DNA of 64,000 bases from Polynucleobacter sinensis (lineage in GTDB: Bacteria; Pseudomonadota; Gammaproteobacteria; Burkholderiales; Burkholderiaceae). Positions 7,756-51,969 of the stretch are shown piece after piece. A program made the position numbers and the translations under genes. The first letter of the stretch is position 1, and each line of letters begins with the position of its first letter. The stretch spans positions 434,001 to 498,000 of the forward strand of contig NZ_LOJJ01000003.1 in NCBI RefSeq assembly GCF_001595985.1, written 5' to 3'. The notes under the pieces are model-generated. The model worked only from the letters and a program-made list of their open reading frames with translations, was not told where the DNA came from and ran no database searches.

Positions 7756-8028
7756 ATGGCACGCATGGTTCAATGTATCAAACTCAACAAAGAGGCTGAA
7801 GGTATGGACTTCGCTCCACTACCTGGTGAGCTTGGTAAAAAGATTTGGAATCAAGTTTCTAAAGAGGCTTGGGCAGCTTGGTTAAAGCAACAAACCATGC
7901 TGATTAATGAAAACCGACTCAATATGGCGGATCCTCGCGCTCGCCAGTACCTCCTCAAGCAAGTCGAAAAGTACTTCTTTGAAGGTGGTGCTGATATGGC
8001 TCAAGGGTACGTACCACCCGCAGAATAA
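7756..8028 (+). CDS. yggX: Probable Fe(2+)-trafficking / oxidative damage protection protein YggX
   Basis: A 90-residue cytosolic protein with the hallmarks of the YggX family: MVQC near the N-terminus with the conserved Cys, LPGELGKKI, a [15 protein letters not shown] block and the closing YFFEGG. Family members support labile iron and protect iron-sulfur enzymes from oxidative stress. The length equals that of E. coli YggX (91). An AAAGG-type ribosome binding site precedes the ATG. It lies 56 bases after argA without a visible terminator between, so read-through from argA is possible. Immediately downstream is the candidate structured RNA with its own promoter. Confidence 0.92.
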
Positions 8029-8045
8029 ATATTTTCGCCCGCCTC

Positions 8046-8074
8046 TTGACGACTCTTATTAAGAGGCATAGGAT
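8046..8074 (+). promoter_or_regulatory. Predicted sigma-70 promoter of the structured RNA
   Basis: TTGACG at 8046-8051 and TAGGAT at 8069-8074 are separated by 17 bases, close to consensus. The expected start is about 8081, exactly where the first hairpin arm GTAGCC begins. The element lies 18 bases after the yggX stop. Confidence 0.55.
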
Positions 8075-8080
8075 GAAACT

Positions 8081-8240
8081 GTAGCCTCCTAGATCTCGTG
8101 GTTGGCTACATTGGCGAAAGCCGATACTGATAAGCATATCTGTGTGCTTATTGGGCACTAGGAACTCAATCTCTTCCTTTTGCCCTCGCCATGATAGACA
8201 TGGCAAACAAACCCGATGGGGCTACCCCGTCGGGTTTTTT
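8081..8240 (+). ncRNA. Candidate independent structured small RNA (about 160 nt)
   Basis: Between yggX and rpiA lies a non-coding stretch that looks like a complete RNA gene: a good promoter (8046-8074), then GTAGCC (8081-8086) pairing with GGCTAC (8104-8109), a six-pair stem closed by a GAAA tetraloop (8110-8125), ATAAGCA (8130-8136) with TGCTTAT (8145-8151), GCCATG (8188-8193) with CATGGC (8199-8204), and a 13-pair terminator stem followed by six T. TCCTAG in the first loop (8087-8092) is complementary to CTAGGA (8158-8163), so a pseudoknot or a long-range closing helix is possible. I do not recognise it as 6S RNA, tmRNA or RNase P. A 3' UTR-derived RNA of yggX is the main alternative. Confidence 0.6.
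8209..8240 (+). terminator. Rho-independent terminator of the small RNA
   Basis: AAACCCGATGGGG (8209-8221), a CTA loop and CCCCGTCGGGTTT (8225-8237) form a 13-pair stem followed by more T. The other strand has a weaker T-run after the stem, so it may also serve rpiA, which converges from the right with its stop at 8243. Confidence 0.88.
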
Positions 8241-8242
8241 AA

Positions 8243-8953
8243 TTAAAAGCTAATGCGACTGACCCCAGATGCATTGCTCACTAGCAAAATATCCGCCTTT
8301 TCTTTTGCAAATAATCCAACTGTAATCACGCCTGCAATTTGATTGATCTGGGATTCCAAGGCCAAAGGGTTGGCAATCTTCAGACCAGAGACATCCAAGA
8401 TCCAGCCGCCGTTATCCGTCACAAATGGCTGACTTTGAGTTTGACCGAGATCCGCCCTTACTTCTTTCGCTAAACGTAAGGTCACATGACCCCCTAACTT
8501 CTCAAGTTCTTTTGTCACTACGCCCTTTGATAAGGGAATAATTTCTACGGGTAAAGCAAAATTACCCAGCATAGGAACCTGCTTTGAGGCATCACAAATA
8601 CAAATGAAACATTGCGCCATCGAGGCAATAATCTTTTCACGAGTCAAGGCGCCACCGCCGCCCTTAATCATGTGGCCAGCAGGATCAATTTCATCAGCTC
8701 CATCCACATAGGCAGGAAAAATACCTACATCATTTGGGTCTAGAACCTTAAAACCGTGCTTGAGCAAACGCTCAGTAGTAGCGTTAGAACTTGATACTGC
8801 TCCAGCAAAATGATCCTTATGGGGAGCCAAGGCATCAATAAAGCAATTGGCCGTGGAACCCGTACCAACGCCTAGCACCTGGCCGGCAGGCAACTTTAAG
8901 ACCTCATCCCTAGCAGCCTCTCCTACCAATTGTTTTAGTTGATCTTGATTCAT
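8243..8953 (-). CDS. rpiA: Ribose-5-phosphate isomerase A
   Basis: The enzyme interconverts ribose 5-phosphate and ribulose 5-phosphate in the non-oxidative pentose phosphate pathway. Family motifs are clear: the phosphate loop GTGSTANCFIDAL, SSNATTERLL, DGADEID with the catalytic Asp, and KGGGGALTREKI. I chose the ATG at 8953 (236 residues) because it gives the usual RpiA N-terminus (NQDQLKQLVGEAA) and has AAGG eight bases upstream; in-frame ATGs at 8968 and 8995 would add 5 or 14 residues with no family match. It is divergent from tal, another enzyme of the same pathway. Confidence 0.94.
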   Translation of the reverse strand: MNQDQLKQLVGEAARDEVLKLPAGQVLGVGTGSTANCFIDALAPHKDHFAGAVSSSNATTERLLKHGFKVLDPNDVGIFPAYVDGADEIDPAGHMIKGGGGALTREKIIASMAQCFICICDASKQVPMLGNFALPVEIIPLSKGVVTKELEKLGGHVTLRLAKEVRADLGQTQSQPFVTDNGGWILDVSGLKIANPLALESQINQIAGVITVGLFAKEKADILLVSNASGVSRISF

Positions 8954-8996
8954 GCCTATTGCCTTCATTGTTCTGGAATACGGAAATTTATCCATC

Positions 8997-14024: not shown

Positions 14025-14111
14025 GCCCAGGTGGCGAAATTGGTAGACGCACCAGCTTCAGGTGCTGGCGATCGTAAGGTTGTGGGGGTTCGAGTCCCTT
14101 CCTGGGCACCA
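14025..14111 (+). tRNA. tRNA-Leu (anticodon CAG)
   Basis: An 87-base class II tRNA. The acceptor arms GCCCAGG and CCTGGGC pair, the anticodon arm is CCAGC-TTCAGGT-GCTGG giving anticodon CAG, a short variable arm follows, and the T-loop GTTCGAGTC is present. The CCA end is encoded (14109-14111). The long D-loop and variable arm fit tRNA-Leu, decoding CUG. Confidence 0.97.
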
Positions 14112-26176: not shown

Positions 26177-27452
26177 TAGGTGAATATTTTCGGATTGGTA
26201 GCGGGTTAAATTCAGAAGATTCTGGTCGTTCGGGTAAAGGCGTTAAAAACTCTTCTGGAGTCATTAATACCTTGGCACGATTATGCTCGACCCTTATTCT
26301 ATCAGTCATTTGCGAGCATTCTGCTAAGGCTGAGCGTAATAAATCGAGGCCTAGGCCAGTCCTAGCGGAGAGGAAAATCTGGCTGGGGATACCATTAGCA
26401 TCCCGCTCCAAAACCGCCCCTCTGGCAAAGGTTTGAGGCATCTGGTCAATCTTATTCATTACCTCGATCCGGGGGATGTCATCAGCCCCTATTTCCCGCA
26501 AAACAGCCTCAACTTCGGCTTTTTGCTCCTTAGCTACCGGGCTACAGGCGTCGATCACATGCAAAATCAGGTCGGCATGGATGGTTTCATCCAGAGTCGC
26601 CCTAAATGCCTCTACCAGCTGATGGGGGAGCTCCCGGATAAAACCCACGGTATCAGAGACCACGATGGAACCCACGCCGTCCAAATGGACTTTTCTGGAA
26701 GTGGTATCAAGGGTGGCAAATAACTGATCGGCAGCATAAGTCCCAGCTTTTGTAAGGGCATTAAAGAGGGTCGATTTTCCAGCATTGGTATATCCAACTA
26801 AGGACACTGAAAAGACGTCCTTACGGTTTCTAGCTCTTCTTTGGGTTCTTTGCTGACGCTGAAGCTTTTCGAGTTCGTTTTCTAGGCGCTTTGCCTTGGT
26901 TGCCAACATGCGTCGGTCAAGTTCCATCTGGGTCTCACCAGGTCCGCCACGCACACCAATACCACCCCGCTGTCGCTCAAGGTGACTCCATGCACGTACC
27001 AAACGAGACATACGATATCGCACTTGGGCTAATTCAACCTGCGTTTTACCAATATGACTTTGGGCTCTTTGGCTAAAAATATCCAAAATAAGACCCGTGC
27101 GATCCATGACATGAAAGCCAATATGGCGCTCAAGGTTGCGCTGCTGAGTGGGGGAAAGCGGATGATTGAAGATGGCTAACTCGGCACCATTCTCCTCCAT
27201 CACCTTCTTAAGTTCATTTGCCTTGCCGGATCCAATGAATAAAGCGGGATCAGTTTTACCTTTACGGGCAATAACGCTGGCTGTGGGTATAGAGCCGGCA
27301 CTATCAGCCAAAAGACTGAGTTCTGCCATGCTGTCCGCAAAATCTTCGCGTCCCGTATCAACACCAACCAGGACGGCGCGCGCCGCATCTACATCAGTTT
27401 TATACAGAGCCGACTTCTTCCGTACGGAATTCCACTGCACGAGCGGGAACAA
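26166..27452 (-). CDS. hflX: Ribosome-associated GTPase HflX
   Basis: A protein of up to 428 residues. The HflX-specific N-terminal domain ([37 protein letters not shown]) is followed by the glycine-rich linker [13 protein letters not shown] and the GTPase domain with P-loop [23 protein letters not shown] and NKID. It splits stalled 70S ribosomes. The exact start is unclear: the frame opens with a TTG at 27452 inside hfq, a GTG at 27440 is also possible, and no ATG is available before the domain; coupling to hfq termination at 27400 is likely. Confidence 0.92.
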
Positions 27453-27642
27453 TGGTTGAGATAGCGTGCTTGTAAACCATCTGCGTTACGGTGTTACGCA
27501 ACAGAACAACATATTGATCAAAGGACTCAATATTGCCCTGTAACTTGATACCGTTTACTAGATAGATAGAGACAGGAACGTGCTCTTTGCGCAAGGCATT
27601 AAGGAATGGATCCTGAAGTAATTGGATTTTGCTGTTATTCAT
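27400..27642 (-). CDS. hfq: RNA chaperone Hfq
   Basis: An 80-residue Sm-like protein with the proximal-face motif [11 protein letters not shown], the Sm1 region ([25 protein letters not shown]) and the Sm2 [12 protein letters not shown] signature. It forms hexamers that bind small RNAs and mRNAs. AAGGAGC lies three bases before the ATG. It leads the hfq-hflX-hflK-hflC block. The candidate small RNA at 8081-8240 would be a natural client. Confidence 0.97.
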
Positions 27643-51476: not shown

Positions 51477-51573
51477 GGACGGGCCTCCCCGCATGGCGGT
51501 TTGGATAACCTGGTCAGGTCGGGAACGAAGCAGCCAAACCCAATTCTGTCAGTGCCGGGGGTCGGGCTCGTCC
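51477..51573 (+). ncRNA. ffs: Signal recognition particle RNA (4.5S RNA)
   Basis: A hairpin RNA of about 97 nt with terminal arms GGACG and CGTCC, a further paired CCTCCCCGC and GCCGGGGG-type stem, and the conserved apical region GGTCAGGTCGGGAACGAAG followed by CAGCC, which binds Ffh. This is the small bacterial SRP RNA. Its position next to dnaX is common in betaproteobacteria. No clear T-rich terminator follows. Confidence 0.94.
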
Positions 51574-51969
51574 ACCTTCCCCAAGCTAGATTTAGCCCAA
51601 TCACAGGATCTTGAGAATCCTCAAGATTCCCCAAATCATCCAAATAATTAGCAATACAAGCATGACCCTTGAATCGAGAGAGATTCGAAATAGCTTCAAA
51701 TGCTTGTGAGAACACTCAATAGAAAGTCGCATCCAGATCCCCGTGAAGTCGGAAAGACTTAGGGTAGATGTTTGAAATGCGAAATGACAGGTTTTGCAGA
51801 GGATTCTGATGTGGGAATGGGATGAGCAATTAGGCTATCAAACTGGGCTTCTTTCTTATGAGCCCCATACTCCAACCAAATAAGCTATTTTTTCTAAATT
51901 ACAAGATTTGGTGGAGCTAAGTAAAACTCAAGGCACAATATTCACTTAATATCTTTTACTGAGAAGCCC
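51574..51969. other. 396-base region without a recognisable gene
   Basis: No ORF of credible length or ribosome binding site is seen on either strand. GGATCTTGAG (51606-51615) and CTCAAGATTCC (51620-51630) form a ten-pair hairpin with one bulge and no T-run. The rest includes the exoX promoter near its right end (AT-rich around 51940-51955). Confidence 0.4.

Follow-up and report, generated by a model that had tools for sequence, protein, structure and literature searches.

The interval between yggX and rpiA in the freshwater bacterium Polynucleobacter sinensis raises the question of whether the structured RNA encoded there is a gene in its own right or the tail of the yggX message. At positions 8046-8240 of the window, the 64,000-nt stretch of DNA that was analysed, a promoter of the sigma70 type is followed by an RNA of 160 nt with five hairpin domains and by a terminator. 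An RNA of this description is already in print. The passages on the HRC-28-1 motif, a high-ranking candidate in Brewer et al. 2021 (PMC8632094), report 33 unique examples, mostly in Polynucleobacter; the gene most often found upstream is PRK05408 and the one most often found downstream is rpiA, always in opposite orientation, and the structure has six stems, the final one a terminator. According to the same passages, the function of the motif is unknown; its authors judge a riboswitch unlikely and propose a 3'-UTR element of the upstream gene.

The RNA of the window is regarded here as HRC-28-1, matched by description (genus, neighbours, stems). Indeed, sound matches to our broader model of the RNA (R2) were found in 127/186 genomes of the genus Polynucleobacter; the PRK05408/YggX gene, identified by agreement of names, lies upstream, and rpiA lies downstream and convergent; hairpins P1-P5 and the terminator together make six stems, the last of which is an intrinsic terminator. 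The locus departs from the published account, with its 33 examples and its 3'-UTR idea, in having a conserved promoter, in occurring in more genomes and in being found in six other gene contexts. The 3'-UTR placement, which is not a defining feature of the motif, is at odds with an RNA that has its own promoter and unlinked copies. The RNA was thus already known as a motif; new here are its reading as a gene, the copies at unlinked places, the losses and the wider distribution. None of these is reported in any paper that we found, most subscription papers lying outside the search, and no second paper in the full-text literature searched carries the name HRC-28-1.

An initial reading of the letters alone (the sequence-only reading) had taken the RNA for one of no recognised class, to be checked against Rfam. 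No Rfam 15 family reached its gathering score at the locus, and the four sub-threshold matches between 7900 and 8400 (E 0.03-4.3) look like chance; a scan of 18 loci returned no relevant family and one irrelevant weak match. The RNA is nonetheless described, as HRC-28-1. The name Polynucleobacter-1, also put forward as a candidate, had to be given up: that RNA (RF01718, cut-off 37 bits) comes from the same genus and is of similar length (141 positions), but it has no match at the locus (E up to 5) or in the whole genome, and in G018, G026, G007 and G014 both RNAs score over the cut-off at different places (2021139 versus 1164552 in G018). RF01718 is patchy in the genus, being over the cut-off in 5/61 genomes (those four and G029), with two copies each in G014 and G029. 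6S RNA (RF00013, cut-off 46.4 bits) is likewise a stand-alone structured RNA of similar length; it has no match at the locus, and a separate 6S gene is present in the same genome (G000:C5:62670-62889). 6S RNA is a long rod, which the chain of short hairpins of HRC-28-1 does not resemble. Across the window, just two Rfam matches reach gathering score: the bacterial small SRP RNA (51478-51575) and one tRNA (14025-14108).

Table 1. Positions in the window of the parts of HRC-28-1, its promoter, the flanking genes and the Hfq gene.
Feature	Position	Strand	Remarks
yggX	7756..8028	+	Upstream gene; name from the sequence-only reading, in agreement with PRK05408 in PMC8632094
-35 hexamer, TTGACG	8046..8051	+	TTGAC plus A, G or T in 89/89 complete loci
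-10 hexamer, TAGGAT	8069..8074	+	Conservation extends from about -17 to -4
HRC-28-1 RNA, ~160 nt	8081..8240	+	Match to model R1, 156.6 bits; probable 5' end, from the invariant G 6 bases after the -10 box
P1 hairpin	8081..8109	+	Loop of 7 nt, first and last letters G, middle variable; two-sided changes in 7/10 pairs
P2 hairpin, GNRA tetraloop	8110..8125	+	No two-sided changes over 78 sequences, 3/4 pairs in the wider set
P3 hairpin	8129..8152	+	Loop UCUR in most sequences; two-sided changes in 6/9 pairs
P4 two-part helix, 9-nt loop	8153..8185	+	Inner helix: two-sided change in 1/4 pairs; outer helix: 334/340 cells paired
P5 hairpin	8188..8204	+	Two-sided changes in 4/6 pairs
Intrinsic terminator	8209..8240	+	13-pair stem, 8209-8237; stem can also serve convergent rpiA
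rpiA	8243..8995	-	Convergent downstream gene; name from the sequence-only reading and PMC8632094
Hfq gene	27433..27618	-	

The minimum free energy fold of the RNA (-75 kcal/mol) is well below the mean of shuffled sequences (-42.1; z = -8.2; 0/200 shuffles as good), and all five hairpins appear in it. The five stems noticed in the letters alone, one of them with a GAAA tetraloop, and the 13-pair terminator ending a unit of about 160 nt were thus recovered. Related loci were collected for comparison. By blastn, the stretch was found in 25/61 genomes, counting that of the window, and these 25 belong to a single genus; a search with rpiA added 80 loci, giving 105, of which one (L103) was dropped, yggX and rpiA being far apart there. 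The other 104 yielded a stretch before the rpiA end: 89 with a complete RNA, two cut by a contig end with the 3' part only (L023, L055) and 13 without the RNA, among them two from other genera in which yggX was not found near rpiA (L101, L102). The 89 complete loci reduce to 78 distinct RNAs, the sets L001-L025 and L026-L105 sharing species.

In a MAFFT alignment of these 78 sequences, pairing holds in 98.6% of the cells of the 43 consensus pairs, versus 34-39% with slid partners, and two-sided changes occur in 18 of the 43. The covariation score is 0.216, compared with 0.123 in shuffles (0/500 as high) and 0.04-0.05 with slid partners. The outer helix of P4 takes two forms that are offset by one base in the alignment and was counted by script; 136/140 and 198/200 cells are paired in the two forms, with changes from G-C to A-U and from C-G to U-A. 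P2 and the terminator are nearly invariant in this set, so they carry little information there. A wider set (alignment A3) shows two-sided changes in 31/43 pairs, a count that leans towards the R1 structure, to which A3 was fitted, whereas the 78-sequence count uses MAFFT. Compensatory changes in the stems across related yggX-rpiA intervals, the check proposed at the outset, were thus found; judged by comparison of sequences, the structure of the RNA is conserved, with compensatory changes in P1, P3, P4 and P5. A further pairing proposed from the letters, a pseudoknot or closing helix between TCCTAG and CTAGGA, was abandoned: the letters are present, but all six pairs form in 1/78 sequences, shuffled columns give the same covariation score, and the helix would be in competition with P1 and P4.

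Some letters outside the stems are fixed: both end Gs of the P1 loop (G-N5-G, the middle varying among sequences), the GNRA loop of P2 (GAAA in the window; GAAA, GCAA or GUAA in 76/78 sequences), the UCUR loop of P3 (75/78 sequences) and C positions in the P4 loop. P2 is an evolvable part: its GNRA hairpin is swapped for a longer one in three genomes and absent in one (L159, L163, L164, L157).

The near-consensus promoter of the sequence-only reading, TTGACG-17-TAGGAT, is present at 8046-8074. Promoter-like sites are about as common in shuffles as in the sequence (3 found, 2.8 expected), so that the case for this promoter rests on its conservation; terminator-like sites number 3, with 1.9 expected. 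In all 89 complete loci, the -35 hexamer in the form given in Table 1 is followed, after a spacer of 17 (n = 70) or 16 nt (n = 19), by TAG[G/C]AT, which ends 6 nt before the first stem; the pattern by which the complete loci were selected itself demands a promoter, and no complete RNA was seen among the 15 stretches that fail the pattern. When 79 distinct intervals were aligned on the RNA start, each of positions -12 to -7 was identical in 76-79/79 and the first base of the RNA was G in 79/79. The spacer is mostly variable and the -35 box conserved, at a spacer of 17 in 64/79 and of 16 in 15/79. Moreover, the gap between the aligned yggX end and the RNA ranges from 51 to 118 nt, while that between promoter and RNA is fixed at 6 nt. 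A conserved A/T-rich tract lies upstream, at about -60 to -46 from the RNA in the 79 intervals; this tract is a possible UP element, a feature that a stable RNA under strong transcription would be expected to have.

Taken by comparison, promoter, structure and terminator are conserved, no reading frame is conserved, and the RNA is independent of yggX (see below); for these reasons, HRC-28-1 is very probably an autonomous small-RNA gene rather than the tail of the yggX message. This supports the proposal of a structured non-coding RNA gene that is independent and has a promoter and a terminator of its own. In such a gene, transcription from the sigma70-type promoter would begin with the first base of P1 (~8081), run through five stable hairpin domains and stop at the intrinsic terminator after about 160 nt. 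Transcription would presumably be strong and constitutive, and the RNA would act in trans.

How the RNA acts can be envisaged in two ways. As a regulatory sRNA, it would meet its targets through the conserved single-stranded letters, chiefly the pyrimidine-rich P4 loop and the UCUR loop of P3, with Hfq as the likely chaperone. By its sequence, the RNA has the own promoter and the Rho-independent terminator with a U tail that mark Hfq-dependent sRNAs, and Hfq is encoded in the window, as had been pointed out (Table 1). A search of this one genome found neither ProQ nor CsrA. The P1 loop offers no obvious seed, since its middle is variable. We give an Hfq-associated regulatory sRNA, pairing through its conserved loops, somewhat less than an even chance. 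Nearly as likely, an autonomous RNA could act by binding a protein, as a decoy or as the scaffold of an RNP, and not by pairing with mRNAs: most of the RNA is folded, so rich a structure would suit a protein partner equally, and the fixed loop letters (the end Gs of P1, the GNRA of P2, the UCUR of P3) resemble contact points, whereas the middle of the P1 loop drifts. However, such an RNA has no known partner, CsrA and ProQ not having been found in this genome and 6S being a separate gene, and the replacement or loss of P2 in some lineages implies that the GNRA loop is not indispensable.

A broader proposal, on balance unlikely, is that HRC-28-1 is a highly transcribed, genus-wide regulator: a single RNA gene that moved between loci with its own promoter and terminator and whose fixed loop contacts (G-N5-G, GNRA, UCUR) would engage either a protein or many mRNAs; the one genome of the lineage that was searched showed neither ProQ nor CsrA. 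The Polynucleobacter asymbioticus group is often very abundant in fresh water, accounting for up to 70% of the bacterioplankton according to the abstract of PMC7522526. Our literature search returned no study devoted to Polynucleobacter small RNAs, and a search of the main text of two P. asymbioticus transcriptome papers (PMC7522526, PMC6629928) for the terms ncRNA, small RNA and non-coding gave no passage.

The published suggestion, made in the passages on HRC-28-1 in Brewer et al. 2021 (PMC8632094), is a 3'-UTR element of the yggX mRNA, which would stabilise the message or be cut from it. Indeed, the RNA lies close behind yggX on the same strand, and no terminator-like site was found on that strand between yggX and the promoter, so that read-through from yggX may add transcripts. 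We nevertheless consider a 3'-UTR element improbable: the conserved promoter abuts P1, homologues occur away from yggX, and close genomes keep yggX without the RNA.

Thirteen unlinked copies were read in sequence, in six gene contexts other than yggX-rpiA. Eight of the more distant genomes (L151-L156, L187, L188) carry the RNA behind a PIN-domain gene, assigned by Pfam in L153 only and by eye in the rest. In G011, LysR and AzlD genes flank the copy; in G168, its neighbour is a ChrR-type cupin gene; G171 has one copy behind a HemN-type gene and another next to a TctC gene; and in G179, a Cupin_2 gene is nearby. Four of the six contexts (LysR, ChrR-type cupin, TctC and Cupin_2) have a divergent upstream gene, and a copy there cannot be its 3'-UTR. 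All 13 copies have a promoter of 9-11 of the 12 consensus bases, with a spacer of 17 and ending 6 nt before the RNA; the same scoring, in which the -35 box was allowed spacers of 16-18, gave 9 or more in 0/30 false matches outside the genus, the highest being 7. In the most divergent copy, L186, the promoter is weak in form (TTGCCA, CAGAAT). In the PIN-domain context, a convergent gene comes next in seven of the eight genomes, matching the polyketide-cyclase/lipid-transport family in L153, and a thioesterase-type gene is nearby in seven of the eight (4HBT in L153).

The genus was searched with two models. R1, built on the 78 sequences, matched in 124/186 genomes of the genus and also found the divergent homologues away from yggX-rpiA; R2, which includes these homologues, matched in 129/186, or 127/186 without two weak matches, one spurious on reading (G074) and one with an E of 0.004 (G061). 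These 127 comprise 115 of the 123 genomes with a closely related rpiA (E <= 3.7e-116, a class counted by hand that agrees with the R2 tally), G076, whose rpiA match is weaker, and 11 more distant genomes. In the other eight of the 123 close genomes, there is no RNA at the rpiA locus and no model match elsewhere; all eight keep yggX, with the aligned ends of yggX and rpiA 23-95 nt apart. The RNA is thus dispensable and not essential. In G011, it is missing at the rpiA locus and present elsewhere in the genome. Reading HRC-28-1 as an autonomous gene would shift the experimental focus from yggX stability to 5' ends, deletion and Hfq pull-down, and the copies in other contexts are natural controls.

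A cis element of rpiA, that is, a bidirectional terminator whose upstream folds limit convergent read-through, is very improbable. The terminator stem adjoins the rpiA stop, with U-rich sequence after the stem on both strands, and a terminator-like stem with similar core letters is retained in three RNA-less genomes (G133, G144, G189); yet a cis element would account for the last hairpin only, leaving unexplained the promoter, the hairpins that covary and the copies near other genes. The stem of this terminator may also serve rpiA. That the locus is a small protein gene, or the fold a product of chance, has negligible probability: a mechanical ORF of 83 aa (7955-8206) lies on the other strand, but on the strand of the RNA, the one compared, no reading frame is conserved over the 78 sequences and the median length of the longest ORF within the RNA is 18 aa (range 9-42), as the sequence-only reading had it in noting no ORF, and the pair changes are compensatory.

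Outside the genus, no copy of the RNA was found at the places examined. R1 gave only matches with E > 1e-3 there, and a search of 398 family genomes with R2 returned weak matches in 61 (E <= 0.01, at most 40.7 bits); beyond the family, 24 genomes of the order were covered by blastn. We examined 30 of the weak places, from 27 of the 61 genomes and with the ten best-scoring included, and rejected them all: a promoter of at least 9/12 was found in 0/30 and the letters of the P1 loop in 0/30. Upstream of each of the 30, the frame in which the match starts stays open for 68 codons or more, although G+C-rich DNA gives such frames by chance too. One weak match, L181, corresponds to the terminal part of a glyceraldehyde-3-phosphate dehydrogenase gene and its terminator. 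The stretch had no blastn match in phages and plasmids; in viral contigs, an 18-base core pattern occurred in three, none of which matched R2. Within the genus, the rpiA match of one genome that carries an unlinked copy (G168:C47:36268-36963) has two TGA codons within its aligned stretch.
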